In this document: one piece after another, positions 4,414-35,828 of the stretch
How positions within the stretch are numbered: position 1 is the first letter of the stretch
Layout of the letters: each line of letters opens with the position of its first letter
Origin: a virus
DNA: 64,000 nucleotides
Virus record (IMG/VR): IMGVR_UViG_3300008267_009160
Location: 1 to 64,000 of that record
Strand: one strand, 5' to 3'
Notes under the pieces: model-generated
The model's database searches: none
Told to the model about the DNA's origin: nothing
Seen by the model: the letters and a program-made list of their open reading frames with translations, nothing else
Made by a program: the position numbers and the translations under genes

Positions 4414-5343
4414 TTATACAACCTGTTTCGTGATCAAATATTCGTATGTATGTTTAACTGCAGCTTCAAACGGTGTTAGTTTGAAATTAGGGAATACTTG
4501 TTTTAATTTTTCGTTACTAGCATCTTTTCTGTACTGCCCATCTAAATCTCCGGAGTATCTAATTTCAAAATGTTCTAATCCTAAAGCTTTTAACGTAGCT
4601 AATGTTAGTTCGTTTATAGATAAAACTTCCGAGGGGCATACGTTAAGGTTAGTATAGGTGTTAGTCTCTATCATCTCTACTATTAGCCTAGCTAAATCTT
4701 TTGCATACATAAACTGTCTAAGAGGCTTACCTGTTCCTAGTAATTCAATATAAGACCTGCCTTCTTTTTGAGCAACTATAATTTTTTTCAACAAAGCGCT
4801 TACAAAATGACTTCCTTTATCGTCGTACTTATCGTATTCGCCGAAAAGGTTACACGGTGTAAGGTAGCAGTAATTACTGTTGTTATTCGTAGCATTGATT
4901 ACATCTACGTGGACTCCCATAACCCTCTTTGCATATCCGTATCCGTAGTTGGTAGGAGTCGGAGGTCCGAAATGTAGATCTTCTTCTTTCATAGGGTATT
5001 GAAACTCTTCTATACGGTCAAAGTTATCCGGGAATACACAAGTACTGAGAGCTGTGATAAAATTGTTTACTTTAAATTCTCGACAAGCTCTGACAATGTT
5101 AAAGTTCATCATTAAGTTATCTTCGAAATAAACCAGCGGTCTTTCAATATTATCTCGAATACCTCCCACTACTGCAGCTAAGTGTATTACAATTTCCGGC
5201 TTGTACGACTGTACGTAGCTGTAAGTATGAGAAGGATTTAATAAATTAAGCTGATGTGAGGAGGGGTAATCTGCTTGTGGGAGTAGTTCTCTTAAGTACT
5301 TACCTACCATACCACTTCCGCCTGTAACTAGTATTCTTTTCAT
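4414..5343 (-). CDS. fcl: GDP-L-fucose synthase-like reductase/epimerase (Fcl or ColC type)
   Basis: A 309-residue short-chain dehydrogenase. The NAD(P)-binding GGSGMVG is at residues 8-14, an S-T-C-V-F-P block typical of GDP-fucose synthases at 100-105, and catalytic Tyr135-x3-Lys139. Fcl converts GDP-4-keto-6-deoxymannose to GDP-L-fucose. The related ColC performs the same epimerase/reductase step on the 3-deoxy intermediate to give GDP-L-colitose. The gmd gene (13079-14047) and a ColD-like PLP enzyme (14040-15200) are in the same island, so either product is possible. Confidence 0.85.
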   Translation of the reverse strand: MKRILVTGGSGMVGKYLRELLPQADYPSSHQLNLLNPSHTYSYVQSYKPEIVIHLAAVVGGIRDNIERPLVYFEDNLMMNFNIVRACREFKVNNFITALSTCVFPDNFDRIEEFQYPMKEEDLHFGPPTPTNYGYGYAKRVMGVHVDVINATNNNSNYCYLTPCNLFGEYDKYDDKGSHFVSALLKKIIVAQKEGRSYIELLGTGKPLRQFMYAKDLARLIVEMIETNTYTNLNVCPSEVLSINELTLATLKALGLEHFEIRYSGDLDGQYRKDASNEKLKQVFPNFKLTPFEAAVKHTYEYLITKQVV

Positions 5344-12335: not shown

Positions 12336-13089
12336 CTTCGTATAATTTTTCTAAAGGAGTATATACAGGCATATTCTGAATAACACGATCTACTCTCTTT
12401 ATCTCTTCCTGTAGATACTTTGATTCATTATAAGGATTTTCTACATTGTAGACATACAGTATCTCGGGAATATATTGACTTTTATCTATACCGCACATCT
12501 CTAACATAGGATATTGAAATACTCTATCTCCAGATAATGCGAAATGTTCTCCAGTATCCGGATCTATAAAGTCTTCAGATTTTATCTTTAAAAATAACTC
12601 TCGTTTGAAAGTCCTTAAGTGTGATCCTAACCAGGTATATGTTCTAAATGTTCTTAACGCCCTAACTGTTAAAGGATACTCTCTATAGTGGTATGTTACA
12701 TCTCTATAAGGATATTCTTCGTACGTGCCGTAAGTCATCCAACACCCGGTTTCTACATACTCTTTATTTACTCTCTGTAAAACTCCTGAATGCGGAAACC
12801 AGTCATCACCATCTAAAGTAACAATTATAGATCTAGCAGGTGCTAACTCGACTGCTAGACGGTAATTCTCTACTTGGTACTTTCGAGTCTCGTTACGTAT
12901 TACTCTTAGATTTTTATTTCTAGATTCAAACTCTTTGACTATTTCAAAGCTTCCATCGTCTGAGCAGGCGTCTATGTACAATATATTAAACGACGGGTAG
13001 TCTTGCTCTAATGCGCTAGTTAAAGATTTTTTTACATAACCGATTACATTTCGAGCTGCTATAACAATAGTCACGTGGTTATATGTCAT
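12328..13089 (-). CDS. Glycosyltransferase, GT2 family
   Basis: A 253-residue classical GT2 enzyme: VTIVIAARN near the N-terminus, Y-I-D-A-C-S-D-D-G-S for the nucleotide site, and T-L-D-G-D-D-W near residues 92-98 containing the DxD motif. It is immediately upstream, by transcription order downstream, of gmd, whose stop it overlaps by 11 nt, so it may use a GDP-mannose-derived donor. Confidence 0.75.
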   Translation of the reverse strand: MTYNHVTIVIAARNVIGYVKKSLTSALEQDYPSFNILYIDACSDDGSFEIVKEFESRNKNLRVIRNETRKYQVENYRLAVELAPARSIIVTLDGDDWFPHSGVLQRVNKEYVETGCWMTYGTYEEYPYRDVTYHYREYPLTVRALRTFRTYTWLGSHLRTFKRELFLKIKSEDFIDPDTGEHFALSGDRVFQYPMLEMCGIDKSQYIPEILYVYNVENPYNESKYLQEEIKRVDRVIQNMPVYTPLEKLYEDE

Positions 13090-14047
13090 ACTGCCAGTAT
13101 TCGATCATTTCCTGCAACATCGTTTCAAAAGTATACTTAGGCTTCCAACCTGTCCGCTCTCTTAGTTTTGTTGCGTCACCTTTTAGGTTATTCAGTTCTT
13201 CCGGTCTTAAAAACTTTTCATGCGTTACAACATACTCTCTATAATCAAGACCTAATTCGCTAAATACAAAATCGCACAGCTCGGCTACTGAATGAGATAT
13301 TCCGGTAGCACATACAAAGTCGTCTGGCTGGTCTAGTTGTAGAATTGAATGCATAGCTTCCACGTAATCTTTAGCATGTCCCCAATCTCGGGTTGCTTGT
13401 AAGTTACCTAGTACTAACTTATCTGATTTACCTTGTTTAATCCTGACAGCTTCTTTGCATACTTTATTTGTAACAAAATTTGTACCGCGGCGAGGCGATT
13501 CGTGGTTAAACAGTATACCGTTTGAGATATACATGCCGTAAGAATTTCTATAATTTCTAGCTATGTTATAGCCAAATACCTTAGCACAGCCGTAAGGAGA
13601 TACTGGATGCAAAGGGGTAGTTTCTCTCTGGTATCCATCAGCATCAATTGAGTTGCCGAACATTTCTGAGGAGGATGCTTGGTATATTTTTATCTTAGGG
13701 TTAATTTCTTTTACTGCTTCTAATAGATTTAAAACGCTTAGTCCTGTTGCATTAGCTGTATAAAGGGGCTGGTCAAAAGAGATACGTACGTGAGACTGAG
13801 CAGCTAGATTATAAATTTCATCAGGCTGTACTTTATTTATTACTCTATACAAAGAAGCGATATCAGTCATATCAGCGTAATGCAGTCTAATAAGTCCGAA
13901 AACTTTATCGAGTCTTGCTGTTTGATTCTCAGCTACAGAATTTCTCTTAAGTATTCCGTGAACGTGGTATCCTAATTCAAGCAAATACTCTGCAAGGTAA
14001 GAACCATCCTGTCCGTTTATTCCTGTAATTAAAGCTGTTTTATTCAT
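13079..14047 (-). CDS. gmd: GDP-mannose 4,6-dehydratase
   Basis: A 322-residue extended SDR. The N-terminus GINGQDGSYLAEYLL (residues 9-23) has the GxxGxxG motif, S-S-S-E-M-F-G is at 125-131, and catalytic Tyr152-x3-Lys156. It converts GDP-D-mannose to GDP-4-keto-6-deoxy-D-mannose, the precursor of GDP-fucose, GDP-colitose, GDP-rhamnose and GDP-perosamine. Slightly shorter than cellular GMD (about 345-370). It overlaps the PLP-enzyme gene by 8 nt. Confidence 0.92.
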   Translation of the reverse strand: MNKTALITGINGQDGSYLAEYLLELGYHVHGILKRNSVAENQTARLDKVFGLIRLHYADMTDIASLYRVINKVQPDEIYNLAAQSHVRISFDQPLYTANATGLSVLNLLEAVKEINPKIKIYQASSSEMFGNSIDADGYQRETTPLHPVSPYGCAKVFGYNIARNYRNSYGMYISNGILFNHESPRRGTNFVTNKVCKEAVRIKQGKSDKLVLGNLQATRDWGHAKDYVEAMHSILQLDQPDDFVCATGISHSVAELCDFVFSELGLDYREYVVTHEKFLRPEELNNLKGDATKLRERTGWKPKYTFETMLQEMIEYWQYDI

Positions 14048-15200
14048 TATCGTTAACTATTTTAGATATTAACTCAATCTCCTGTTCTGATAGATCTTGA
14101 TGATTAGGTAAGTAAAAGCCTTGTTGGTGTAGTAATTCACAGTTAGGAAGATCTACTGGTTGGTAGTATGATTTCCAGAAAGGCTGTCTAGCCATTGAGC
14201 CAGCAATAAGGGGTCTTACTTCTATCTTAGCTTCTCTCAATGCCTGTACTATCTTCTCTCGGCTAGGACTGACTACCGGATAGGCAAAATTAGAAATTAA
14301 ATCACTATCTTGTACTTCTAAGGATAGTTTATTGTGTCTGATTAAATGCTTGTAGTATCTGAAATTTCTCTGTCTTTTAACTTTTATATCATCTAGTTTA
14401 CCTATTTGACGTAGTCCTAAGAAAGCTTGTAGGTCTGTTGCTCTAAGGTTAAAACCCGGGTAGTAGAAAGTGTATTGAGCATCAAAATCGGAAATGTTAT
14501 GTCCGTTTCTTAAATGTGCTTGTTCAGAAGGTTCTAAATCTCTATCCCATCCGTGATTTCTCATCATTAAAGATACCCCGGCTAAGAATCTATTATTTGT
14601 ACATACAAAACCTCCTTCTATGGTGGACAGGTGGTGGCCGTAGTATAAACTAAATACAGACATTTCACCAAAGGTTCCTAGCTTTTTGCCTTTGTATTCC
14701 GATCCCATTGATTCGCAAACATCTTCTAATAGCACTACATCGTGTTTTTTACATAGAGCTAGAATAGCATCCATATCAGGAACAAATCCTAAAACGTGTA
14801 CTAGTATAAATGCTGCAGGTTTATGTGTTTTAAATAATTTTTCTAGGTGAGTTAAGTCTACAGCTAAGTTTTCAAGATTACAATCACATAGTATAGGGCG
14901 AAGTCCTAGTTGAGTACAGGAAGTTACATCTGTTATCCAAGACAAGCCTGGAACTATGATCTTATCGTTCTTTAACTTTGCAGTATGTTTTAAGACTGAT
15001 AGCATCAACAACAAGGCTGATGAGCCAGAGTTTACATACGTTGTGTATTTTACTCCTAGGTACTCGGACCATTCTGCTTCTAATTGTCTAGTTAAAGGTC
15101 CTTTAGTTAATTGAGGTGTAGGATTTTGCTGTAGCCATCCTACTAAAGCATCTATATCGCTTCTATCTATAGTATCTGAGACTAGTTTAACTGGTTGCAT
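14040..15200 (-). CDS. DegT-family PLP enzyme with active-site histidine (ColD/RfbH-like sugar 3-dehydratase)
   Basis: A 386-residue DegT/DnrJ/EryC1/StrS fold protein. Aminotransferases of this family have a lysine in the cofactor loop, but here the loop reads S-L-Y-Y-G-H-H-L-S-T-I-E-G-G (residues 184-197), with histidines 189-190. Lys-to-His replacement is the hallmark of the sugar 3-dehydratases: RfbH/DdhC on CDP-sugars and ColD, whose active-site His is at a similar position, on GDP-4-keto-6-deoxymannose. Adjacent to gmd, the ColD reaction towards GDP-colitose is the simplest inference. PLP-binding E159-D160 and S164-M165 regions are present. Confidence 0.8.
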   Translation of the reverse strand: MQPVKLVSDTIDRSDIDALVGWLQQNPTPQLTKGPLTRQLEAEWSEYLGVKYTTYVNSGSSALLLMLSVLKHTAKLKNDKIIVPGLSWITDVTSCTQLGLRPILCDCNLENLAVDLTHLEKLFKTHKPAAFILVHVLGFVPDMDAILALCKKHDVVLLEDVCESMGSEYKGKKLGTFGEMSVFSLYYGHHLSTIEGGFVCTNNRFLAGVSLMMRNHGWDRDLEPSEQAHLRNGHNISDFDAQYTFYYPGFNLRATDLQAFLGLRQIGKLDDIKVKRQRNFRYYKHLIRHNKLSLEVQDSDLISNFAYPVVSPSREKIVQALREAKIEVRPLIAGSMARQPFWKSYYQPVDLPNCELLHQQGFYLPNHQDLSEQEIELISKIVNDNE

Positions 15201-23922: not shown

Positions 23923-24702
23923 CTATAAAATGTTCTTAGAGCTTCTCTCAAGTCTCTGTTGTTCATCTTGGAACCACCTCCATTTTATATATCTCCAGTC
24001 TGATAACACTCTACTACCGGGGTGTCCTTCTCTTGCGTTTTGAGAATTCCTCATTAGCTCTTTAGTACTTTCAACTTCTCGATATCCCTTTTCCCAGCCT
24101 ATTTTTTCTATTAATTTTAGAGCTTCTGGTGAGTGGGTTGTTCCGTAATGTATATATCGGTAAGTAGAGTCTTTTGGTGCTCTTATTTCCGGGAAATACT
24201 GGGCGATACCGTGCATGTAACCGTCGAAGTATAGTATATCTCCGAATAAGCCGGATGAAGTATTGTTACCGTGTTTCTGCTCTATCCATTCGTATATACT
24301 ACGGTGTGTTGCAGGAAACCAGCAATAGGGTGCTGAGAATATAAAAGAAGGTATTTCGTAGTACTCTTCGAGTCTGTATTTTAAATCTCCCGGATCTGTT
24401 AGTATTGCATCATCATTCCAGATCTGTAAATAGCGCCCTGTAGCTACTCCGTAGAGAGAGTTGTGGTACTCCGGAAGATCCATATAACCTCGTCCTTGCG
24501 GGGATACGATAACTTTCAAATCCGGGCCAGCTAATTTTCTCAAAGCCTCAAAACTAGCAATATCATCGTCATCGATTTTCACACATATCTCTATTGACAT
24601 ATGTTGTCCAAATCCGTTTCGTAGACTTGAAATACATTGATCTAATATTTCAGCTCGGTTTCGAGTAGGGAATAAAATACTGAGCAGAGGGGTGTTGTTC
24701 AT
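23923..24702 (-). CDS. Glycosyltransferase, GT2-like
   Basis: A 259-residue protein: L-L-S-I-L-F-P-T-R-N-R at the N-terminus, V-K-I-D-D-D-D in the nucleotide region and I-W-N-D-D-A near residues 91-96 as the metal site. Clearly paralogous to the upstream 24699-25694 protein (same P-T-R-x-R, G-x-G-Y and W-N-D-D-A motifs). The stop/start overlap of 4 nt shows coupling. Confidence 0.7.
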   Translation of the reverse strand: MNNTPLLSILFPTRNRAEILDQCISSLRNGFGQHMSIEICVKIDDDDIASFEALRKLAGPDLKVIVSPQGRGYMDLPEYHNSLYGVATGRYLQIWNDDAILTDPGDLKYRLEEYYEIPSFIFSAPYCWFPATHRSIYEWIEQKHGNNTSSGLFGDILYFDGYMHGIAQYFPEIRAPKDSTYRYIHYGTTHSPEALKLIEKIGWEKGYREVESTKELMRNSQNAREGHPGSRVLSDWRYIKWRWFQDEQQRLERSSKNIL

Positions 24703-25694
24703 AGTATATTCTCTTTTTTAAGTAATTCAAATAGATCACAGACTTCTGCTTGATATGCCTTCTTTAGCGTAGGCCTCTTTTTTAAAAAACTTAACTTCTG
24801 CTCAAGGGTAAGCTGTGTGTATTGGTACCAGTTAAAAAATACTAAGTCTAATATACTCCATTCGTCGTATGTTCTTCTAGCGCTAGGATGGTACATTAGC
24901 CCGGGGTCATTGCGATTTATACTACTTTTATCTTCTATTACCGGTTGCCATCCGGCTTCCCATCCTACCTCTGCTATTAATGCAGATACATCTTCTGATT
25001 TATATTCGTTGTGGGAGTTTATAATCCTATCACCTTCCCAGTGAGAATATTCGTAAGTTGCGATATCTTCAAACTGAAGGAGTTCATACTCTTCCGGGCT
25101 TATGTGTCCTTTGACAGAAACTTTTACGTGGTCTGCGAAGTAGACATCCACAAAGACCATACCTTCGAAGATATGTCTATCCCCTCTATACCCGTGTGTT
25201 TCTCTTAAACGTTCCCATATACCCCAGTGTATAATTCTAAAGTAACATTTTTCTCCTCGAGCCTCAGATCTAATAATACACGGTAGGTCTTTATTCCTGT
25301 TAAGGAGTATTTGCGCTAAATTACCGGGAGTATCCAACCAGGCATCGTCGTTCCACAACATAAGGTAGGTTCCGTTACTTATACTGGCTAAATCATTCCA
25401 GTACTTGCCCATAGACCCATATCCTTCTCCTCGTTCTGATATTATATAACGAACGTTTGGGTATTTAATTTTTGAGATCGCTTGAATTGTTTCATGGTCG
25501 TCTGTGTCTACTTTAATGCAAATTTCAATAGGTATTTGCTCTCCTATAGTATCTCTAAGTCTATCGATGTTTTTTTTGAGTATCTTACTTCTATAACGAG
25601 TGGGGTACATTATAGAAAGAAGCGGTATGTTTTCCGGACGTTTATAATTGCAATGCTCCCAAAAAGGAAAGCTATGTATGTACTCTCTAATCAT
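24699..25694 (-). CDS. Glycosyltransferase, GT2-like (paralogue of 23923-24702)
   Basis: A 331-residue protein. I-M-Y-P-T-R-Y-R-S opens the GT-A domain, V-D-T-D-D-H follows, and L-W-N-D-D-A-W near residues 114-120 carries the DxD-like site. It shares motif order with the neighbouring gene and probably arose by tandem duplication. The C-terminal ~100 residues are unique. Confidence 0.7.
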   Translation of the reverse strand: MIREYIHSFPFWEHCNYKRPENIPLLSIMYPTRYRSKILKKNIDRLRDTIGEQIPIEICIKVDTDDHETIQAISKIKYPNVRYIISERGEGYGSMGKYWNDLASISNGTYLMLWNDDAWLDTPGNLAQILLNRNKDLPCIIRSEARGEKCYFRIIHWGIWERLRETHGYRGDRHIFEGMVFVDVYFADHVKVSVKGHISPEEYELLQFEDIATYEYSHWEGDRIINSHNEYKSEDVSALIAEVGWEAGWQPVIEDKSSINRNDPGLMYHPSARRTYDEWSILDLVFFNWYQYTQLTLEQKLSFLKKRPTLKKAYQAEVCDLFELLKKENIL

Positions 25695-26385
25695 AATTAT
25701 AAAAATATTTTACTAAATTCTCATAAGACTTACTTCTGTATGTGGAGTCTAAATCAAAGATAGGATTTTTGTAGTTAGACATGCTATTAGTGTATAAATC
25801 TACTCCTAGTTCTATAGTTGAATTAAAATAACGTTTTACTTCTTTTAGTTCAATAATATCCTCAGATACAAAATCAATAACACCGCTATAGTGTTTATAA
25901 TCTCCTGTTGTAATAAATCTGAGGATATCTTGCATTAGTATGTAGTTGAAAGTAGACTCTCCACTAATACCAATTCGTCCTATGTTTGCTTTTAGTTTTG
26001 TAGCGTGATTAGGTTTCATAGTATCTCCGAACATCATAGGACACCTTAAGATCAAGTCATAGCTATCTAATAGACTTTCCGCAAAGCGTTTAAAAAGAGC
26101 ATAGACAGTCGGAGAAGTTTGGTATACGTCAACTGTTGATATATAGACAAAATATTTATGCGGTAAAGCTTTTAGCTTTTGAGTCAAGAAGATATTATCT
26201 TCCATATACTTCTTGTAGTCTGTTATAGGATACTCCTTATTAAAAGCGCAGTGTATTATTGTATTGTAACCTTCTTCTGAAAGACTATCAAAATTAACTC
26301 TACTCAATCCCTGAGATCCTGGGATGTTTATATGTAAGTATTTACCGAGACCGCTTCTGATGCCTGTAATAAGAAAATCATTCAC
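25687..26385 (-). CDS. Short NAD-dependent epimerase/dehydratase (SDR)
   Basis: A 232-residue protein with an SDR N-terminus: F-L-I-T-G-I-R-S-G-L-G-K (residues 4-15) as nucleotide loop, I-I-H-C-A near 44-48, and Y-I-S-T-V-D-V-Y near 91-98. The usual Y-x3-K is seen as Y-A-L-F-K (about 106-110). Shorter than full epimerases (about 310), lacking much of the substrate domain. Probably sugar-nucleotide modification, working with the adjacent ThDP enzyme. Confidence 0.65.
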   Translation of the reverse strand: MNDFLITGIRSGLGKYLHINIPGSQGLSRVNFDSLSEEGYNTIIHCAFNKEYPITDYKKYMEDNIFLTQKLKALPHKYFVYISTVDVYQTSPTVYALFKRFAESLLDSYDLILRCPMMFGDTMKPNHATKLKANIGRIGISGESTFNYILMQDILRFITTGDYKHYSGVIDFVSEDIIELKEVKRYFNSTIELGVDLYTNSMSNYKNPIFDLDSTYRSKSYENLVKYFYNYD

Positions 26386-26391
26386 AGTATT

Positions 26392-26928
26392 TTATTTTGT
26401 ATTATAGTACTCTGTGTGTTCTATAACCAAAGTTGACTTGGTATCTGAACGTAAGTATGCATGTTGGTAAGCGGATATTGCTTGGTCAGGTTCGGTTAGT
26501 TCAATAACATCTACGTCTGTTAACATTTGCTTTATAGCTTCTGTGTGATTTTGTGAATGTTGGGGTCCTGAATGTAGTGGTGTTTTTGCTCCGATTCCTA
26601 CTCGTATAATAACTTTAGGTGTTAAAATTCCTTTAGACATCTCATTCATCTTATCTAGATGATTTACGAGTTGATTCATAGCTAAAATAAAAAAATCAAA
26701 ACGAGGGTAGCAAGTGATCGGTACGAAGCCTTCTAATGCAAGGCCTGTCGACATTCCCATCTGAGTTTCTTCAAATACAGGAAGTTCTATTCTCTTCTCT
26801 AGAGGAACATTCACCAATGTGCTAGATAAAGCGTGGCCACTTACCTTTACTGCTTGTCCTAAAAAGACTGTATTAGGTTGATTCCCTAACCAGTTCATTG
26901 CTTCTATAATTGCTTCTCTATATTTCAT
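26392..26928 (-). CDS. ThDP-dependent enzyme, PYR-domain subunit (E1-beta/transketolase-like)
   Basis: A 178-residue protein resembling the pyrimidine-binding domain of 2-oxoacid dehydrogenase E1-beta or transketolase. The segment L-P-V-F-E-E-T-Q-M-G-M-S-T-G-L-A-L-E-G (about residues 49-67) carries the catalytic Glu that activates thiamine diphosphate. The usual C-terminal third domain is missing. It overlaps the PP-domain gene by 1 nt, so the two should form one heteromeric enzyme. Confidence 0.72.
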   Translation of the reverse strand: MKYREAIIEAMNWLGNQPNTVFLGQAVKVSGHALSSTLVNVPLEKRIELPVFEETQMGMSTGLALEGFVPITCYPRFDFFILAMNQLVNHLDKMNEMSKGILTPKVIIRVGIGAKTPLHSGPQHSQNHTEAIKQMLTDVDVIELTEPDQAISAYQHAYLRSDTKSTLVIEHTEYYNTK

Positions 26929-27560
26929 TAGAAGTTAACCCATTTACCTGTTCCGTGATGTGGATATTTCATTTCATAAGTATAATATATAACTTTATTA
27001 GGAATTACACATCGCTTACCCCAGGCTGATTCTGTATTTGTATGTACACTATTGTTGTTATCTTCTACAACAAACTGCAAAGGTAGATCGAAGTTTTGAG
27101 AATACTTATAAGCTTCCCAAAATACACCTGTTTCAAAAGTCATATCTCCAATAAAGCACCAGACTTTATCTTTTGAATTCTTTAGCTTGAGTCCTTGTGC
27201 TACTCCTAAAGCAATAGGTATGATGCCTCCTACAATTGAAGATGTGTAGAAGTTAGGATCTGAGTTTATTATACCCATGCTTCTACCTTCTATGATCCAA
27301 TCGCGTAATTTACCGGGATTAACTCCGTGAAGTAATGCATGGTAGTGGTTTCTCCATGCAGAGAATACCCAGTCGGTAGGGGAGATATACTGAAAGAGTT
27401 TGATAAGTTCTGGTTCGTTATTGCCGGATAGGTGTATTGGACCTTTTATTTGCCCTTGCTCGTATAAAGCTTTTATATTATCTTCGAAAGAAGATAGATC
27501 TTCGGCAGTTAGTATAACGTCCCTTCTCTTTTCAAAACTAAAATTAACCGGAAAATGCAT
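26928..27560 (-). CDS. ThDP-dependent enzyme, PP-domain subunit (E1-alpha/transketolase-like)
   Basis: A 210-residue protein with the thiamine-diphosphate motif G-D-M near residue 137 leading to E-D-N-N-N about 28 residues later. The N-terminal region I-H-L-S-G-N-N-E-P contains the conserved substrate-side histidine. Much shorter than E1-alpha (about 320-400). In a glycan island it could transfer a two-carbon unit to a sugar, or make a precursor, rather than feed the host TCA cycle. The reaction is unknown. Confidence 0.72.
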   Translation of the reverse strand: MHFPVNFSFEKRRDVILTAEDLSSFEDNIKALYEQGQIKGPIHLSGNNEPELIKLFQYISPTDWVFSAWRNHYHALLHGVNPGKLRDWIIEGRSMGIINSDPNFYTSSIVGGIIPIALGVAQGLKLKNSKDKVWCFIGDMTFETGVFWEAYKYSQNFDLPLQFVVEDNNNSVHTNTESAWGKRCVIPNKVIYYTYEMKYPHHGTGKWVNF

Positions 27561-27597
27561 TTGATGCTTTTATATAAATATGCATCAATCTAAAAAG

Positions 27598-27684
27598 TAC
27601 CTAGGGCGGGAATCGAACCCGCACGACCTTTTTCGGGTCAAAGGATTTTAAGTCCTTCGTGTCTACCTGTTCCACCACCTAGGC
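27598..27684 (-). tRNA. tRNA-Leu (UAA)
   Basis: An 87-nt class II tRNA on the minus strand. Acceptor GCCTAGG pairs with CCTAGGT, D-arm GTG/CAC, anticodon stem AAGGA/TCCTT with loop CTTAAAA (anticodon TAA), long variable arm, and T-arm with TTCGATT loop. CCA is not encoded. Confidence 0.95.
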
Positions 27685-27688
27685 ATAC

Positions 27689-28061
27689 GCTACTGTTCTT
27701 TGACGTTTTTTATTTTATCCTTTTAAAATTTGTTTACTGCTCGATAACTTACTTTCAAGCTTATCACAGCGTGAATCTATTGTTCTGTAAATATCCTGTG
27801 CGATATCATCAGTCTGTTTTTGAACTTCGTTAATTCGCTGAAAGATATTTCCAGATTCGGTACTTATTGATCGGTAGATATGATCAGTGTTCTCATGTAA
27901 AACCTGTCTTAGGTCTCTGATCTGTGTGTTTAAATTGTTTACCCTAACGAAAGCATAAACAGCAACTGCTGCAATAGCAACAACCGCCACGAATGCTATC
28001 CCTAAACTAAATGATAATAGTTCCATAATTTGTTTCTCCTTATATGTCAAAGAACAGTAGC
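27689..28061. repeat. 18-nt inverted repeat enclosing a small CDS
   Basis: GCTACTGTTCTTTGACGT at 27689-27706 and its complement (17 of 18 matching) at 28044-28061. The arms sit just outside the gene 27715-28026, 5 nt from the tRNA-Leu(UAA) end and 3 nt from the tRNA-Leu(UAG) end. The pairing would loop out the whole mRNA between two tRNAs. On the minus strand the 28044-28061 arm contains a boxA-like TGTTCTTTGACA. Confidence 0.75.
27715..28026 (-). CDS. Small membrane protein with coiled coil
   Basis: A 103-residue protein starting MELLSFSLGIAF at the ATG at 28026, which keeps the gene outside the flanking tRNA. Residues about 5-28 form one transmembrane helix; the rest is a long amphipathic, Q/N/S-rich coiled coil. 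Topology resembles spanins or inner-membrane anchors of lysis and superinfection-exclusion proteins. Similar in layout to 30880-31182. Enclosed by an 18-nt inverted repeat. Confidence 0.65.
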   Translation of the reverse strand: MELLSFSLGIAFVAVVAIAAVAVYAFVRVNNLNTQIRDLRQVLHENTDHIYRSISTESGNIFQRINEVQKQTDDIAQDIYRTIDSRCDKLESKLSSSKQILKG

Positions 28062-28063
28062 TG

Positions 28064-28145
28064 TGCTCCATGAGAGACTCGAACTCTCAAGCCTTGCGGC
28101 ACCAGATCCTAAGTCTGGCGTGTCTACCAATTTCACCAACGGAGC
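28064..28145 (-). tRNA. tRNA-Leu (UAG)
   Basis: An 82-nt class II tRNA. Acceptor GCTCCGT/ATGGAGC, D-arm GTG..CAC, anticodon stem CCAGA/TCTGG with loop CTTAGGA (anticodon TAG), variable arm TGCCGCAAGGCT and T-loop TTCGAGT. Confidence 0.95.
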
Positions 28146-28150
28146 GGTGC

Positions 28151-28228
28151 GTCCCAGTTTGAACAGATAATGTGCTGTTCTCTCATTGCTCCCGTATACG
28201 ACACCTGCGTACCTCGTAGGAGTGGGAC
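28151..28228 (-). ncRNA. Candidate structured RNA A in the tRNA array
   Basis: A 78-nt non-coding stretch between the HETIH gene and tRNA-Leu(UAG). Outer stem 28151-28156/28223-28228 (GTCCCA/TGGGAC on the plus strand). Inside are a compound arm (28189-28192/28219-28222 continuing with 28197-28201/28214-28218) and a 6-bp hairpin 28161-28166/28175-28180. It looks cloverleaf-like but is not a tRNA (no T-loop). Strand assumed minus. Confidence 0.5.
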
Positions 28229-28245
28229 TACAACATCAACGAGCG

Positions 28246-28788
28246 TTAATAGAGAATATTGGTTACTCCTGCTATTAACTGACCTTGTTTTTGAAAAGCA
28301 TCTTCTTCCCAAGGCCTCTTTTCATAGGTAACATTTTCTAAATTAAATTCTTCGCCTTTCCAGTATACAATTCCTGTATTTTGGTCATAGGAGATGTCGC
28401 CGTCTTGGTATTGTGTGAGATGTATTGTTTCGTGGGAAAGTACTTCGATAGCATCTTCTCTATCTAGCTCTGCAATAAACAGGTAGTATATGCCATTGAA
28501 AGACCTAATATGAGCTTTAAGTTCGCCGTCAAACTGCGACTTTGCTTGGTCTGAGAGAGGGTTAATAACAACGGTGATGCCTGTTAGTCCGGCTTGGTCT
28601 AGAGCTATGCTTAGAGCAGTGTCGTAGTAAGTAGGCATACTGTTATTTACTACAGAATTGTTAAACGGTAATTCGACTTGCTTATAAGGCTCTTCTTGAG
28701 TGAAGTTGTTAGCCATCAATATTCCCGCTACTATTAGCAGTGTAACTACTCCGGTAGCTATTCCAATTTTTTTCCAGTTTGATTTCAT
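28246..28788 (-). CDS. Membrane-anchored HEXXH metallopeptidase-like protein
   Basis: A 180-residue protein. Residues about 7-26 form an N-terminal transmembrane anchor after a basic start (MKSNWKK), placing the rest in the periplasm. S-H-E-T-I-H-L-T-Q-Y (about residues 117-126) is an HEXXH zinc site. No cleavable signal is evident. It may act in lysis or on envelope proteins. Located between tRNA genes and the tRNA-like element. Confidence 0.65.
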   Translation of the reverse strand: MKSNWKKIGIATGVVTLLIVAGILMANNFTQEEPYKQVELPFNNSVVNNSMPTYYDTALSIALDQAGLTGITVVINPLSDQAKSQFDGELKAHIRSFNGIYYLFIAELDREDAIEVLSHETIHLTQYQDGDISYDQNTGIVYWKGEEFNLENVTYEKRPWEEDAFQKQGQLIAGVTNILY

Positions 28789-28804
28789 TGTTGATAATTT
28801 TTAG

Positions 28805-28910
28805 CAGCCAGGGGAGGAATCGAACCTCCACGCTTAAATTAAGCGGACACTAAAAGTGCCTGTGTATATCCTTCGGTAGTCATATGCCTACACGTTTTCA
28901 CCACCTAGCT
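28805..28910 (-). tRNA. Atypical class II tRNA-like gene with enlarged D-loop
   Basis: A 106-nt element with a sound acceptor stem (AGCTAGG/CCTGGCT), T-arm (GGAGG TTCGATT CCTCC), variable-arm hairpin (CGCTTA/TAAGCG) and D-stem GTG/CAC. The D-loop is about 34 nt, some 20 nt more than in the neighbouring tRNA-Leu genes, and the anticodon stem is irregular (GGCA/TGTC around CTTTTAG, apparent anticodon TTT, or a 5-nt loop). Body resembles tRNA-Leu. Could be a decayed tRNA, one with an unusual inserted element, or a tRNA mimic. Amino acid uncertain. Confidence 0.5.
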
Positions 28911-28923
28911 TTTTATGCCTTTA

Positions 28924-29133
28924 TTACTTGATAGCTTGGTCGTGAGCAGATTTACCACCACCTACGGAGACGGTATCTTCACTACCTGAAATTTTAGCTA
29001 CAGTACTATCTGTTGCGACAACTGAGCTGTCTGCTACAGCGGTGCTATCAGCGCCGGTGTTTTCGGTTGAAGCGGATCCTCCGCAGGACATCATGGCAAA
29101 CATAACGGCAATTGCAAGAATTGTCTTTTTCAT
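28924..29133 (-). CDS. Small lipoprotein
   Basis: A 69-residue protein: basic start MKKT, hydrophobic segment to residue 15, and lipobox M-M-S-C-G-G with the acylated cysteine at residue 17. The mature part is a low-complexity Ser/Thr/Asp/Ala tract, disordered and probably periplasmic or surface exposed. The form is typical of Bacteroidetes lipoproteins. It has its own promoter (29172-29202). May serve in lysis or superinfection exclusion. Confidence 0.75.
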   Translation of the reverse strand: MKKTILAIAVMFAMMSCGGSASTENTGADSTAVADSSVVATDSTVAKISGSEDTVSVGGGKSAHDQAIK

Positions 29134-29171
29134 ACTTTTTTTTTAATTTTGATTTGTTAATAATTGTAGAA

Positions 29172-29202
29172 TAAATATAGAATAAAAACTTCAGACTTCC
29201 AA
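29172..29202 (-). promoter_or_regulatory. Bacteroidetes-type promoter of the small lipoprotein
   Basis: TTG (29200-29202), a 20-nt spacer starting GAAGTCTGAAG, and TATATTTA (29172-29179) on the minus strand. It shares AGTCTGAA in the spacer with the promoters at 1766, 1847 and 33823. Confidence 0.65.
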
Positions 29203-30111
29203 CTAAAGGCGGGCTCCTACCTTATTTTTTATAATTAACGTATCATTCTGTATATCTGTACAAGCTGTAGGGGTTGGTCCTATCCACCAGGATGCTAAAC
29301 AACTACTGCCAATAGAACCCATAATAGGACCTGTTAGACCGTTACATGGTTTGTATGTGTAAAGTAAATTACAATTAGCATCCCATTGGGCCTGGTGTAG
29401 TAAACCAACAGTATGTCCTGCTTCATGAGATACGCATACTCTAGTTCGTAAAGCATTGTAGCTTAGTGTATTAGTAAATACAAAACACGGAGTATCACTT
29501 CCCCAAAACATACTCCCTACATATGCTACACCTGCTACTCCTGGATATATTTCATTAGAAGTGGTAATTACTACTCTCATTCTTTTTGTTATACTAGCTT
29601 TAAGGTATACGCTTTCATCTGTAGTAACAATTACATTAAATTTAACATAGTCTTTAGATACACTATCTAATATTGTCTGTATATCTGCAGGGTATAATCC
29701 ACTTGGTAAGAGCTGTTTCGGTATACCGTTATTCCAAGATGGGCTGTTTAAGTAGTATCCATCGAAATCTAATAATATAACTGAGCTAGCACCCGGGTTA
29801 TTCCCGTACGGGTATGGATCACAGGCATTACCTATACCATCACCATCAGAATCTAATTGAGTTGAATTTGAAACTTTAGGACAGTTATCATTTATATCAG
29901 GGATACCATCTTTATCAAAATCTCTTAATTTGGTCGATCCTCCGACTCGAGCCATTTCAAACTCTATTCTAGTTTTGAATGAACTATTATCTAGAGGGCC
30001 AAAATCACAAATTTCAACTTTAGGATTACTTGGTTGATTAATTTTCTCTTTAGTACAGGTTGATAGCACTGCTATAAAAAGTATGCAGCAAAGCAATAAT
30101 CTAGTGTTCAT
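29203..30111 (-). CDS. Lipoprotein metzincin-like protease with thrombospondin-3 repeats
   Basis: A 302-residue protein. The signal peptide has a lipobox-like L-S-T-C ending near residue 19. Two calcium-binding TSP3-type repeats lie at about residues 63-100 (D-x-D-x-D-G-I-P-D and D-S-D-G-D-G-I-G). H-E-A-G-H-T-V-G-L-L-H (about 230-240) is the extended HEXXHxxGxxH zinc site of metzincins. An extracellular or periplasmic protease of a kind common in Bacteroidetes but unusual in a phage; possible host acquisition. Role could be lysis, spread or modifying the surface. Confidence 0.82.
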   Translation of the reverse strand: MNTRLLLCCILFIAVLSTCTKEKINQPSNPKVEICDFGPLDNSSFKTRIEFEMARVGGSTKLRDFDKDGIPDINDNCPKVSNSTQLDSDGDGIGNACDPYPYGNNPGASSVILLDFDGYYLNSPSWNNGIPKQLLPSGLYPADIQTILDSVSKDYVKFNVIVTTDESVYLKASITKRMRVVITTSNEIYPGVAGVAYVGSMFWGSDTPCFVFTNTLSYNALRTRVCVSHEAGHTVGLLHQAQWDANCNLLYTYKPCNGLTGPIMGSIGSSCLASWWIGPTPTACTDIQNDTLIIKNKVGARL

Positions 30112-30161
30112 TATAGTAAGGTTGTACTTATAATTAGTTTACAGCCTTAGCAGGACGTCGA

Positions 30162-30623
30162 TTATTTTTTGCATACTGAATCTGCAGCATAAGTCATCAG
30201 GGGGGAATTTCCTTTGTGTCTCACCTTATACCCCATCCCGGTTACTATACCTACTGCTGAAGTGAGAGCTTGGTTTGATTGGTATTTTGGGTCGGGATTA
30301 ATATCAATATCAATCCAGGTTGCTTTAATGTTTAATTCTGATCTTAGCAGTTCTGCTATTTCAACTGAAAACCAAACTTCGTTTAGTAGCCTTGGTGTGT
30401 TTTCTCTTTCTCTACCTGTGTTAAATTTTGAGAAAAGAACATGAGCTCCTTTTCCGGGCTTGTACAGCCCCACTACCAGGGCGTATACTGTTGTGAGTAA
30501 TCTATTTTGAGAATCGCATCCAATTAAAACTTCAACTCCGGGGTTCCTTTCTGTGTAATCTTTTACGTATTTAACTAGGTCTACTCTCTGCTTAGTGGAG
30601 AGTGTTTTAAACTCTCTTTCCAT
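30162..30623 (-). CDS. RNase H-like protein, DUF458/YkuK type
   Basis: A 153-residue protein. I-G-C-D-S-Q near residues 34-39, a later I-D-I-D-I-N-P-D-P near 101-109 and a C-terminal acidic/helix pattern resemble the YkuK (DUF458) family with an RNase H-like fold. Biological role unknown even in bacteria; nuclease or nucleic-acid binding is possible. Next to tRNA-Arg(UCU), so an RNA-related job is conceivable. Confidence 0.65.
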   Translation of the reverse strand: MEREFKTLSTKQRVDLVKYVKDYTERNPGVEVLIGCDSQNRLLTTVYALVVGLYKPGKGAHVLFSKFNTGRERENTPRLLNEVWFSVEIAELLRSELNIKATWIDIDINPDPKYQSNQALTSAVGIVTGMGYKVRHKGNSPLMTYAADSVCKK

Positions 30624-30653
30624 AGTCTTTAATTTTTACGTTTTACCAATCAG

Positions 30654-30725
30654 TAGTCTCACCAAGAATCGAACTTGGATCCACTGCTTAGAAGGCAGTT
30701 GTTCTATCCGTTGAACTATGAGACC
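30654..30725 (-). tRNA. tRNA-Arg (UCU)
   Basis: A 72-nt tRNA. Acceptor GGTCTCA/TGAGACT with a G-U at the end, anticodon stem ACTGC/GCAGT with loop CTTCTAA (anticodon TCT), T-arm CCAAG TTCGATT CTTGG. Confidence 0.95.
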
Positions 30726-30731
30726 AAAAAG

Positions 30732-30860
30732 GAAGAGTTGCTAACGAGCTTTGAATCTTACCTACGCACTGTGAGGTATCTCGTCTTCTTTGTTCGCATT
30801 GCCTGTTCATGGTGCACCAATTCCAGGTTGCCGTGCGTGTCAGTGTTATAACAACTCTTC
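30732..30860 (-). ncRNA. Candidate structured RNA B in the tRNA array
   Basis: A 129-nt non-coding stretch closed by a perfect 9-bp stem (30732-30740/30852-30860). Inside are a 6-bp stem 30764-30769/30833-30838, and a hairpin formed by 30802-30805/30824-30827 with the palindrome TGGTGCACCA at its tip. On the minus strand the closing stem is followed by C then T5, like a terminator, directly before tRNA-Arg(UCU). Strand assumed minus. Confidence 0.55.
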
Positions 30861-30879
30861 AAATCGTTTCGTTATATTC

Positions 30880-31182
30880 TTATCTATTTTGATCTCCTGC
30901 TTTTTTAATAGCAAGGATTGCTTTATCTACTCTTGAATCAACTTTCTTAGAGAGTTCTTGAATTTTTTGATCTGTACTTTTTGATACACTTCCTAGAGTT
31001 TCTGTTATATCTCTTATATCTTCTCTAAATGCTCTAACTTCATCTCTCATCTTTCTATGATCTATAACTACGTATATAACCGTAACAATCATTATACCTA
31101 AAAGAAACATTGAGATTGGGTGTGGTAGTGATGATACTACTACTTCATCAGAAAAACCAGGAAGTGTTTGTAACAGATACAT
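30880..31182 (-). CDS. Small membrane protein with coiled coil
   Basis: A 100-residue protein. Residues about 20-41 (hydrophobic, Ile/Val-rich) form a single transmembrane helix, followed by a basic stretch and a charged coiled coil to the C-terminus. Same architecture as 27715-28026 and 40099-40317. Possibly a spanin, an antiholin partner or an exclusion protein. No family recognised. Confidence 0.6.
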   Translation of the reverse strand: MYLLQTLPGFSDEVVVSSLPHPISMFLLGIMIVTVIYVVIDHRKMRDEVRAFREDIRDITETLGSVSKSTDQKIQELSKKVDSRVDKAILAIKKAGDQNR

Positions 31183-31203
31183 AATCTTTAATTTTTGGTT
31201 TAT

Positions 31204-31302
31204 AAAAAGGTATAGTACACTCTTAATATTGACTCCGACTCTTTTTCAAGCCAGCACCTCCGAAATGACGCTGACGTTGGGATAGGAGAGTCTAACCTTT
31301 TT
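31204..31302 (-). ncRNA. Candidate structured RNA C in the tRNA array
   Basis: A 99-nt non-coding stretch closed by 8 bp (31204-31211/31295-31302), with an inner stem 31237-31242/31287-31292 and a hairpin 31252-31255/31270-31273. It lies between tRNA-Arg(CCG) and the membrane gene at 30880-31182. A/T-rich ends make the closing stem weaker than in elements A and B. Confidence 0.4.
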
Positions 31303-31361
31303 TCAAAGTTAAACAATAGAATTGAACTATAACACAACTCTATATCGAAAGCATACTATTG

Positions 31362-31432
31362 TGGATGATACTGGAATCGAACCAGCGCTTCAAGAGTCGG
31401 AGTCTCGCGTCCTGCCATTAGACGAATCACCC
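31362..31432 (-). tRNA. tRNA with anticodon CCG (Arg by anticodon; Gln/Glu-like body)
   Basis: A 71-nt tRNA. Acceptor GGGTGAT/ATCATCC, D-arm GTCT/GGAC, anticodon stem CGAGA/TCTTG with loop CTCCGAC (anticodon CCG), T-arm GCTGG TTCGATT CCAGT. The D-arm region TTCGTCTAAxGG is nearly identical to the neighbouring tRNA-Glu and typical of Glu/Gln tRNAs, suggesting an anticodon change in such a tRNA. Charging amino acid not certain. Confidence 0.8.
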
Positions 31433-31457
31433 ATCAGATCTGAAAAGATCTTTTCTG

Positions 31458-31531
31458 TTGACCCTGCTGGACTCGAACCAGCTACCCGCAGATTATGAGT
31501 CTGCTGCTCTAACCTGGTGAGCTAAGGGTCA
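31458..31531 (-). tRNA. tRNA with anticodon CAU (Met, or Ile2 if modified)
   Basis: A 74-nt tRNA. Acceptor TGACCCT/AGGGTCA (an unusual T1-A72 pair), anticodon stem GCAGA/TCTGC with loop CTCATAA, T-arm GCTGG TTCGAGT CCAGC. Elongator Met, initiator Met and lysidine-modified Ile2 cannot be separated by sight. Confidence 0.92.
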
Positions 31532-31608
31532 CTGTTAATATTTTAAATATAGTGACTATTTATAAATATACAAACGGTTTCAGTATCTTTAACTTAAATT
31601 TTTAAAAC

Positions 31609-31776
31609 ATGAAAGAACAAGTATTAGGCCTAGTAAGACACGCTTTAACTTTTGTCGGCGGTATTATCGTCGCTAAAGGACTTCTTGACGAGGCTCTTTT
31701 TCAAGAAGTACTCGGCGGAGTTATGACTCTAGTCGGTGCTGTTTGGTCAATTGCTTCTAAGAAGAAAGCAGCTTAA
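31609..31776 (+). CDS. Small holin-like membrane protein on the opposite strand
   Basis: A 55-residue gene on the plus strand, the only convincing one in the window. MKEQVLGLVRHALTFVGG starts an N-terminal amphipathic/hydrophobic helix (residues about 10-24), then a short polar turn and a second hydrophobic helix (about 34-50), ending in a K-K-K-A-A basic tail. This matches small two-helix phage holins (Pam3-gp28 type). A -7-like TATCTTTA lies upstream at about 31584 and a strong terminator follows. It probably permeabilises the inner membrane at lysis. Confidence 0.75.
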   Translation: MKEQVLGLVRHALTFVGGIIVAKGLLDEALFQEVLGGVMTLVGAVWSIASKKKAA

Positions 31777-31800
31777 TCTAACTGTTCTCACTTTTTAATG

Positions 31801-31826
31801 AGCCGGCTTTATGCCGGCTTTTTTTT
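31801..31826 (+). terminator. Intrinsic terminator of the holin-like gene
   Basis: A perfect 7-bp stem AGCCGGC/GCCGGCT with loop TTTAT, followed by a run of T on the plus strand. It ends the plus-strand transcript just before the convergent tRNA-Glu gene. Confidence 0.9.
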
Positions 31827-31827
31827 G

Positions 31828-31899
31828 TACTCGGTACGGGAATCGAACCCGTATCTTATCCGTGAAAGGGATACGTCCTAACCGTTAGACGAACTGAGC
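31828..31899 (-). tRNA. tRNA-Glu (UUC)
   Basis: A 72-nt tRNA. Acceptor GCTCAGT/ACCGAGT (one A-C mismatch), anticodon stem TATCC/GGATA with loop CTTTCAC (anticodon TTC), T-arm ACGGG TTCGATT CCCGT. Confidence 0.94.
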
Positions 31900-31902
31900 G
31901 TG

Positions 31903-31973
31903 TTACTCCGACTGGGCTCGAACCAGGAACTGCAGAATCAAAATCTGTCGTGTTACCATTACACCACGGAGCA
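31903..31973 (-). tRNA. tRNA-Gln (UUG)
   Basis: A 71-nt tRNA. Acceptor TGCTCCG/CGGAGTA, anticodon stem ACAGA/TCTGC with loop TTTTGAT (anticodon TTG), T-loop TTCGAGC. Confidence 0.93.
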
Positions 31974-31979
31974 ATGTAG

Positions 31980-32051
31980 TAGAGTAGACAGGGCTCGAAC
32001 CTGCACGCACTTGCTCCCAAAGCAAGGGACCTACCATTGGTCAACTACTCT
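31980..32051 (-). tRNA. tRNA-Pro (UGG)
   Basis: A 72-nt tRNA. Acceptor AGAGTAG/CTACTCT, anticodon stem CTTGC/GCAAG with loop TTTGGGA (anticodon TGG), T-loop TTCGAGC. Confidence 0.94.
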
Positions 32052-32056
32052 ATTAG

Positions 32057-32128
32057 AGCTCCCATCCGGAATCGAACCGAATTATCTTGATTACAAGTCA
32101 AGTGCATCGCCTGCAATGCTTTGGGAGC
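32057..32128 (-). tRNA. tRNA-Thr (UGU)
   Basis: A 72-nt tRNA. Acceptor GCTCCCA/TGGGAGC, anticodon stem CTTGA/TCAAG with loop CTTGTAA (anticodon TGT), T-loop TTCGATT. Confidence 0.94.
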
Positions 32129-32134
32129 TGTTAG

Positions 32135-32207
32135 CGCGGATGGTAGGACTCGAACCTACAACCTTCGGTTTTGGAGACCGCAACTCTACCAATTGAGCTA
32201 CACCCAC
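32135..32207 (-). tRNA. tRNA-Trp (CCA)
   Basis: A 73-nt tRNA. Acceptor GTGGGTG/CATCCGC, anticodon loop CTCCAAA (anticodon CCA) on a CGGT/ACCG stem, T-arm GTAGG TTCGAGT CCTAC, discriminator G. Confidence 0.94.
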
Positions 32208-35531: not shown

Positions 35532-35828
35532 TTAATTTTCTGAAACAATGCCGATTACTTCTACAGTTTTACAGAGGAAATACTCATCACCTCCTAGTGT
35601 AACTCTCATACTACCTACTTTAGGAATAAGCAATTTGTCACCTACGTCGAACTTTGTTTGAACAAATTGACCGGTTTGAAAGTTATAAAAATCACTATAC
35701 GCGATTACTTCGCCAATAGCTGGTTTTTCTTTTCCTAGATCAGGAATAATAATGTTGCCTGCAAGGATCTCTTCCTCTTCTACAGGCTTGAGCAAAACGT
35801 ATCCGTTTAGCGGTTTTAATACACTCAT
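35532..35828 (-). CDS. groES: Co-chaperonin GroES
   Basis: A 98-residue protein with the Cpn10 fold: L-K-P-L-N-G-Y-V-L-L-K-P start, G-N-I-I-I-P-D-L-G-K-E-K-P mobile loop and G-E-V-I-A-Y-S turn (about residues 24-43), then K-V-G-S-M-R-V-T-L-G-G-D-E-Y-F. It caps GroEL. Standard length (about 95-100), unlike the larger T4 gp31. Gene order groES-groEL is the usual operon order. Confidence 0.94.
   Translation of the reverse strand: MSVLKPLNGYVLLKPVEEEEILAGNIIIPDLGKEKPAIGEVIAYSDFYNFQTGQFVQTKFDVGDKLLIPKVGSMRVTLGGDEYFLCKTVEVIGIVSEN

Follow-up and report, generated by a model that had tools for sequence, protein, structure and literature searches.

E1 enzymes decarboxylate 2-oxo acids on thiamine diphosphate (ThDP) and then hand the acyl unit to lipoamide. 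According to PMC4753412, PMC10338323 and PMC12247030, the E1-like pairs AviB1/B2 (avilamycin), Pau11/12 (paulomycin) and EvdU5/EvdS3 (everninomicin) are proposed to move a two-carbon unit onto the ketones of NDP-sugars, and KbDH-alpha/beta has been found in vitro to couple pyruvate, as its only donor, to ketones including sugar analogues. PMC12247030 also states that ketone-accepting alphaKADH2 enzymes have no experimental structure, and it gives CDP-3,6-dideoxy-4-keto-glucose as the substrate of YerE; a YerE-like enzyme, JanthE, is represented by PDB 8rph (PMC12188165). A substrate of the YerE type is what a 4,6-dehydratase and a 3-dehydrase together produce. The locus described here lies in a stretch of viral DNA of 64,000 nucleotides, referred to as the window (IMG/VR record IMGVR_UViG_3300008267_009160, positions 1 to 64,000), and encodes a compact pair of PP- and PYR-domain subunits (Table 1).

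The genes follow each other on the minus strand in the order PP, PYR, a 232-aa SDR and two GT2-type glycosyltransferases, the PP and PYR ORFs overlapping by one base (TAATG), which suggests that their translation is coupled. PP matches the Pfam family E1_dh (1.1e-11, 44.7 bits against a cut-off of 22) and PYR matches Transket_pyr (1.8e-10, 41.2 bits against a cut-off of 27), so that the original prediction of PYR and PP subunits of a ThDP enzyme, made from the sequence alone, holds for both by Pfam and by the E1 folds described below. Its claim that the third domain is missing is likewise borne out: neither PP nor PYR has a Pfam match to Transketolase_C, and the PYR ORF stops right behind the PYR domain. 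The best NCBIfam matches are pyruvate dehydrogenase (PDH) E1-alpha for PP (1e-24) and E1-beta for PYR (1.2e-13), each far under its curated cut-off, and in PHROG the two halves of the 405-aa phrog_34187 match PP and PYR at 6.6e-53 and 1.7e-31. A transketolase identity for the pair, split-gene forms included, was considered and is disfavoured, since Transketolase_C is absent and the best profile match is not a transketolase.

Table 1. Positions of the gene pair, of its sugar island and of further features mentioned in the text (window positions unless a locus or genome is named)
Feature	Position	Strand	Remarks
PP subunit (E1-alpha-like, 210 aa)	26928..27560	(-)	GDM...EDNN Mg/ThDP motif, H43, H72, H201
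PYR subunit (E1-beta-like, 178 aa, without C-terminal domain)	26392..26928	(-)	Catalytic Glu E53, H124
Short divergent SDR (232 aa)	25687..26385	(-)	Putative reductase acting on the new branch or ring
GT2-type glycosyltransferase (331 aa)	24699..25694	(-)	PF00535, 23.5 bits, cut-off 23.3; candidate for product transfer
GT2-type glycosyltransferase (259 aa)	23923..24702	(-)	PF00535, 27.7 bits, cut-off 23.3; candidate for product transfer
ColD-type PLP sugar 3-dehydrase	14040..15200	(-)	His at Lys position, YGHHLSTIEGG; PDB ColD 2gms 2.1e-53
GDP-mannose 4,6-dehydratase (GMD)	13079..14047	(-)	TIGR01472 6.1e-117, 390.6 bits, curated cut-off 415; PDB GMDs from 7.1e-98
GDP-fucose-synthase-like SDR (Fcl)	4414..5343	(-)	NF047922 3.5e-42, 144.9 bits, under equivalog cut-off 500
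tRNA genes (10)	27597-32207		Nearest ends 37 bases upstream of PP start
GroEL- and GroES-like genes	33873-35519 and 35532-35828		Recognised by eye
QueE- and QueC-like genes	41577-42413 and 45880-46740		PHROGs
Split transketolase-like pairs	L140:10531-12272, L062:13744-15449, L015:6472-8207		Profile-checked
Split transketolase-like pairs	L077, L176, L182		By cluster membership
Module of JanthE/YerE-like ThDP enzyme, PanB-like 3-methyl-2-oxobutanoate hydroxymethyltransferase and SDR	L070:1763-5321 (and L060 counterparts)		PanB-like: TIGR00222 over cut-off; module beside ColD
PYR and PP genes with a radical SAM gene between them	L003:7397-9615		735-kb phage record LR756501.1
ORFs annotated 'phosphoheptose isomerase'	L001:12474-12812, S-SM2 157418-157729		Cyanophages
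Small conserved protein, cluster 7	e.g. L178:1795-2193		YLPTLSELIDRLSI, ~132 aa
L-2-hydroxyglutarate oxidase match near the pair	L183:15293-16462		Over NCBIfam cut-off
Member of the same cluster	L174:15232-16401		

Predicted models of the subunits reached a pLDDT of 93.2 for PP (96-row alignment) and 94.3 for PYR (92-row alignment). The PP model aligns with human PDH E1-alpha over 200 residues (VIA-align, Z 20.2, 2.6 A, 24% identity), its residues 2-209 covering residues 12-271 of the 362 in that chain, and the PYR model aligns with E1-beta chains over 171-172 residues (VIA-align, Z 24.2, 1.5-1.7 A). Lower-scoring fold matches were a split transketolase (Z 15.3) and DXS (Z 14.8) for PP, and DXS (Z 18.7) and transketolase (Z 17.8) for PYR. 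In a phmmer alignment to 1ni4, H43 and H72 of PP sit on histidines of E1-alpha. The glutamate of E1-beta is matched by E53 of PYR. H43, H72, G138, N168 and H201 are invariant in the 96 aligned PP sequences and D139, M140, E166 and D167 are conserved in at least 90% of them, while E53, H124, R76 and R109 are invariant in the 92 aligned PYR sequences; the cyanophage S-SM2, which lies outside the 96-row PP alignment, carries Met at the position of H72. The active-site Glu and the GD..NN motif, which the original prediction expected at the ThDP, are thus retained at the level of sequence and fold. H43, H201, H124 and E53 presumably correspond to human alpha-His63, alpha-His263, beta-His128 and beta-Glu59, and we read the YPHHGTG segment near the end of PP as the likely counterpart of the YHGHS loop of E1-alpha. 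Domains, predicted fold, catalytic Glu and Mg/ThDP motif together assign the pair to the E1 (alphaKADH2) superfamily.

Among the matches listed, relatives are encoded in 562 of 599 viral stretches for alignment A1 and in 567 of 599 for alignment A2, and a scan of genome contigs gave at least 19 loci, three of them full-length E1. The locus set was drawn from the best 80 matches of each viral scan, in which one locus may be matched twice; its 186 loci form 124 groups at 95% identity, of which 109 are viral (a lower bound) and 15 come from genome contigs, the window's phage being one of the 124 (L033). A bacterial acoAB in a record labelled as phage (L004) and the window's own copy (L013) were removed before counting, as were matches weaker than E 1e-45, which took out the full-length E1 loci L030-L032. 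PP and PYR are adjacent in this order in 70 of the 109 viral groups, separated in 26 and in reverse order in 6, with the genes fused in 2 and a single subunit seen in 5; split subunits have median lengths of 208 (PP) and 178 (PYR). As 102 of the 109 viral groups, the window's included, carry both subunits as separate genes, a chance gene call is excluded and PP and PYR are confirmed as a two-gene E1-type ThDP enzyme. Among 197 Pelagibacterales genomes 5 have the compact form (227-318 bits, all further matches reaching 121 bits or less), as do 2 of 296 Actinomycetota genomes (281 and 299 bits, the next 117); the pair is rare in cells and forms a mainly viral clade. A concatenated tree of 136 tips unites all 122 compact pairs in a clade of their own (support 0.965), with 14 full-length pairs outside it, and places the window in a viral clade of 24 members (support 0.997). 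No paper on this phage enzyme family was found in a literature in which subscription journals were largely out of reach; by their titles and abstracts, publications on the 'transketolase central region' held nothing concerning cyanophages, and the words heptose, thiamine and transketolase are absent from PMC11898729, which treats SAR11 O-chain clusters.

The surroundings of the relatives were compared through ORF clusters, whose names (ColD, GMD, Fcl, RmlC etc.) rest on one annotated representative each; the ColD family (cluster 4) includes a few Lys-type members, and the 'GMD' cluster (cluster 5) mixes several 4,6-dehydratase-like SDRs. The representative of the RmlC-type 3,5-epimerases matches PF00908 at 1.4e-40, that of the DegT proteins near the pairs has ColD 2gms as its best match (1.5e-57), and that of the 4,6-dehydratases is closest in the PDB to GDP-D-glycero-D-manno-heptose 4,6-dehydratase 7us5 (3.3e-113, the next at 2.3e-58); further neighbour clusters comprise Fcl-like SDRs, HldE kinase and nucleotidyltransferase domains, HddA, a cupin and radical SAM enzymes. 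In the window's clade the typical order is RmlC, PP, PYR, ColD, Fcl, an SDR of the window's type, Fcl, GMD and HldE kinase. With 'directly downstream' meaning the first ORF to follow that has 80 aa or more and survives the overlap filter, the ColD family stands directly behind PYR in 21 of the 24 listed loci of this clade, and in 18 PP has an RmlC-type epimerase immediately before it; at a distance of up to 10 kb from the pair, 20 of the 24 have a GMD-family SDR, 19 an SDR of the window's family and 18 an HldE kinase. Elsewhere in the family the picture varies: in a second clade, distant and for the most part viral, 28 of 31 loci have the ColD family no further than 10 kb away; of the 27 loci of a third, viral clade 2 have it, although 26 have RmlC and 25 have Fcl; and a fused/SPASM clade has it in 0 of 10. 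Over all, ColD, GMD, SDR-6 or Fcl clusters occur within 10 kb of the pair in 110 of 119 listed loci. The position of the PLP lysine in the DegT proteins of the 124 loci is occupied by His in 71 and by Lys in 3, a His-type DegT lying within 10 kb in 63 of the 124 listed loci and a Lys-type in 3.

Control sets qualify this association. Of the best 80 phage stretches anchored on GMD, none of which has the pair, 34 carry a His-type DegT and 9 a Lys-type, so that the His:Lys ratio of 71:3 at pair loci differs from 34:9 at a Fisher p of 0.008, calculated with kinship ignored, while the presence of a His-type DegT is similar in the two sets (63/124 and 34/80). Starting from the window's ColD subtype, 2 of 79 loci (from the best 80 matches listed) have the pair no more than 10 kb away, and among whole records of 40 kb or more it occurs in 2 of 43; another set of whole records of this size gave 2 of 30, the same two records. 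Of 80 loci of the K-type DegT, 3 have the pair. Many phage sugar islands have ColD and lack the pair, and ColD is no predictor of it; only the reverse link, from the pair to ColD, is strong, by adjacency, in the window's clade, and this adjacency is stronger evidence than counts of DegT presence.

Several neighbouring genes deserve mention in their own right. In the related phage loci L060 and L070 a second module with a ColD of its own lies several genes upstream of the pair and consists of a JanthE-like ThDP enzyme, a PanB-like enzyme, an SDR, ColD and a GMD-family SDR; the JanthE-like protein of L070, the member tested, matches 8rph at 8.8e-130, and the PanB-like enzyme might provide an uncommon 2-oxo acid as donor, from which a longer branch could be put on the sugar. 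In L003, C-methyltransferase-like genes recognised by eye flank the pair region on both sides. The ORFs annotated as phosphoheptose isomerases in L001 and S-SM2 look like small capsule phosphatases and not like SIS isomerases, the L001 ORF (the sole one tested) matching TIGR01689 at 5.8e-06, under the cut-off. The small protein of cluster 7 is found in 49 of 124 loci, and its representative has no Pfam match. The compact pairs of L022, L024, L025, L027 and L029, MAG contigs labelled archaea, Deltaproteobacteria and Desulfobacterales, lie near SPASM radical SAM genes in place of ColD, four of the five with B12-type radical SAM genes as well, and the function of these SPASM-associated pairs may differ.

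The window has its own version of such a sugar island. That the pair adjoins a short SDR and glycosyltransferases, as originally noted, is upheld by the SDR family, in which G8, G14, S83, Y95 and K99 are invariant (18 aligned), and by the two GT2 genes, which pass the PF00535 cut-off; the ColD, GMD and Fcl genes complete the sugar-island setting. The SDR itself has no Pfam match at E <= 0.1, and the profile of its family matches RmlD-type SDRs (3.7e-6). The window's ColD is closer to 2gms than to the E1 dehydrase 3bcx (4.9e-44), has no NCBIfam equivalog over its cut-off and belongs to a different subtype, with 32-35% identity to the ColD of its clade members L041, L042, L060 and L043. It adjoins GMD, the enzyme expected upstream of it, about 11 kb from the pair, and neither ColD nor RmlC is next to the pair. 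As a candidate supplier of the 3-deoxy-4-ketosugar acceptor it may possibly serve colitose instead, Fcl may draw off the 4-ketosugar towards fucose or colitose, and the ColD/GMD/Fcl set as a whole could equally make colitose. In a near-identical record of 180.9 kb (G001) the pair and ColD recur, both 100% identical, and a second GMD-family gene lies at 167.8-168.9 kb; Transketolase_C is absent from this record and from the window's. RmlC, HldE kinase, HldE nucleotidyltransferase and a JanthE-like enzyme were unmatched at 1e-8 in seven pieces of G001 and in the window, and a hexose derived from GDP-mannose is therefore more likely than a heptose as the sugar of the window's phage. Comparison of ten window proteins with PHROG returned phage replication genes (DnaB-like helicase, UvsX-like, SSB, ribonucleotide reductase), and the QueE- and QueC-like genes suggest, by sequence, 7-deazaguanine modification of the phage's DNA; GroEL- and GroES-like genes and a group of tRNA genes lie beyond PP.

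With moderate confidence, and by analogy with the sugar-branching enzymes, we interpret PP and PYR as a minimal E1-type ThDP carboligase that would add a two-carbon unit to an NDP-4-ketosugar. The subunits would assemble as alpha2beta2 and decarboxylate a 2-oxo acid, most likely pyruvate, the resulting hydroxyethyl or acetyl carbanion going to the C4 ketone of a sugar instead of to lipoamide. The enzyme would accept a 4-keto sugar of the 6-deoxy or 3,6-dideoxy kind, bound to GDP (or to another NDP) and supplied by the 4,6-dehydratase and the ColD-type dehydrase, and the product would be a C4-branched sugar, whose branch the adjacent SDR may reduce and which the glycosyltransferases would place on a phage or host surface glycan. 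The phage operon would fit the logic of YerE, in which dehydratase and 3-dehydrase precede the two-carbon addition, and the sugar is probably a heptose in many relatives and a hexose from GDP-mannose in the window. The two-carbon branch on a sugar, suggested at the outset, is the best supported of the functions considered, and the neighbourhoods of other phages, with ColD directly behind PYR, speak for it while stopping short of proof. More tentatively, and with some doubt, we suggest a virus-dominated pathway to C4-branched 3,6-dideoxy sugars, often derived from heptose and hence of nine carbons, that are made by no known organism, with a minimal E1 carboligase without a third domain as the smallest E1-type enzyme attacking a ketone, and with surface glycans decorated or remodelled during infection.

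Other readings of the pair can be weighed against the same data. One is that the enzyme passes a C2 unit to an aldose phosphate in the manner of transketolase or DXS, giving sedoheptulose-7-phosphate or a deoxy-ketose for a heptose pathway with kinase and nucleotidyltransferase genes that are often close by, and it would suit the HldE-type kinases found within 10 kb in 46 of 119 loci (HddA-type in 16 of 119) as well as the fused genes of S-SM2, P-TIM68, L023 and L028, which have HldE-type kinases and a Zn-alcohol dehydrogenase and no ColD nearby. DXS and transketolase are also among the fold matches, at lower Z, but the profiles of PP favour PDH E1 over transketolase (2e-5), and 6 of 124 loci (3 of them profile-checked) hold a separate split transketolase-like pair besides the compact one, possibly for hydroxyacetyl transfer in the same islands. 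The one occurrence of Transketolase_C in 20 carrier records is inside such a split transketolase, in one of these six loci. A SIS-type phosphoheptose isomerase (PF13580) occurs in 0 of the 20 records, a step that the host may supply, and hosts already make sedoheptulose-7-phosphate; on balance we think this transfer unlikely. Lower still in our estimation stands plain decarboxylation of a 2-oxo acid, or acyloin synthesis, which would yield an aldehyde or acetoin-like block for a glycan substituent and form no C-C bond at the ring. Compact ThDP decarboxylases with two short subunits are known, as in the sulfopyruvate decarboxylase ComDE; PYR resembles the 168-170-residue chains of AzcB/AzcC 9u8q (TM to target 0.66-0.67, 13% identity), and the Zn-alcohol dehydrogenase beside the four fused genes could reduce an aldehyde. 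Sequence and fold are nevertheless of the E1/transketolase type, the ComD/ComE profiles of NCBIfam, the beta profile TIGR03846 included, match neither PP nor PYR at E <= 0.1, and sugar SDR or ColD-family clusters lie close to nearly all the pairs.

That the phage supplies an E1 to the host's pyruvate dehydrogenase E2, as an auxiliary to central metabolism, would explain why the E1 active-site histidines are kept, but we hold it to be very improbable: the C-terminal domain of E1-beta, whose half of the chain carries the E2-binding surface in Bacillus-type E1, is absent, and the genes are located in sugar operons. Moreover, E2 core and lipoyl domains (PF00198, PF00364) were found in 0 of 20 carrier records, two of which are the window's phage and some of which are near-duplicates or fragments, while the same searches gave matches in 10 and 14 of 14 control genomes; the pair is thus not part of a phage-encoded dehydrogenase complex. 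We attach hardly any weight to a decayed or non-catalytic remnant, to which the position of the window's pair away from ColD and RmlC, unlike most of its clade, and the Met at the third residue of the canonical GDG might point, given that the ORFs are intact and coupled by TAATG, the catalytic residues are invariant and the Met of GDM is itself conserved to at least 90% across the family.

If the carboligase reading is true, some 100 or more environmental phage groups encode a sugar enzyme that forms C-C bonds, whose type is known chiefly from antibiotic clusters and which here has a minimal form that would show which parts of E1 are needed for addition to ketones. It would also point to so far unrecognised branched sugars on phage or host surfaces, with a bearing on receptor exclusion and host range, and could provide small biocatalysts for tertiary alcohols.

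Compared with known systems, the phage pair shares the fold, ThDP motif and catalytic Glu and His of pyruvate dehydrogenase E1 alpha/beta, but has no C-terminal domain and no E2/E3; PYR lacks the C-terminal domain of the beta chain and a full E1-alpha chain exceeds PP by about 150 residues, so that 210 and 178 aa stand against ORFs of ~320-375 and 305-390 aa in most of 16 full-length E1 pairs. The compact decarboxylases AzcB/AzcC and ComDE likewise consist of two short subunits, but belong to another ThDP family; AzcB/AzcC match PYR weakly in structure, and ComDE gives no match by profile. To the same family as the window pair belongs phrog_34187, a 'transketolase central region-containing protein' of the cyanophages S-SM2 and P-TIM68, in which PP and PYR are fused in one chain of ~380-402 aa beside a Zn-alcohol dehydrogenase and an HldE-type kinase, with no ColD nearby. 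YerE, JanthE and ErwE share the proposed reaction and its partners, a 3,6-dideoxy-4-ketosugar from a dehydratase plus 3-dehydrase, yet they are single chains of the acetolactate-synthase type whereas the phage enzyme has two short E1-type chains, and a YerE-like enzyme is a separate gene family (cluster 48) in 7 of 124 pair loci (one member tested). Closest are the alphaKADH2 pairs AviB1/AviB2, Pau11/Pau12, EvdU5/EvdS3 and KbDH-alpha/beta, described in PMC12247030, PMC4753412 and PMC10338323 as likewise E1-like, situated in branched-sugar clusters and using a C2 unit with pyruvate as donor. The phage pair, likened to these sugar-branching enzymes by description, has nucleotide-ketosugar genes nearby as they do, and differs in being virus-borne and set in a surface-sugar or heptose context.
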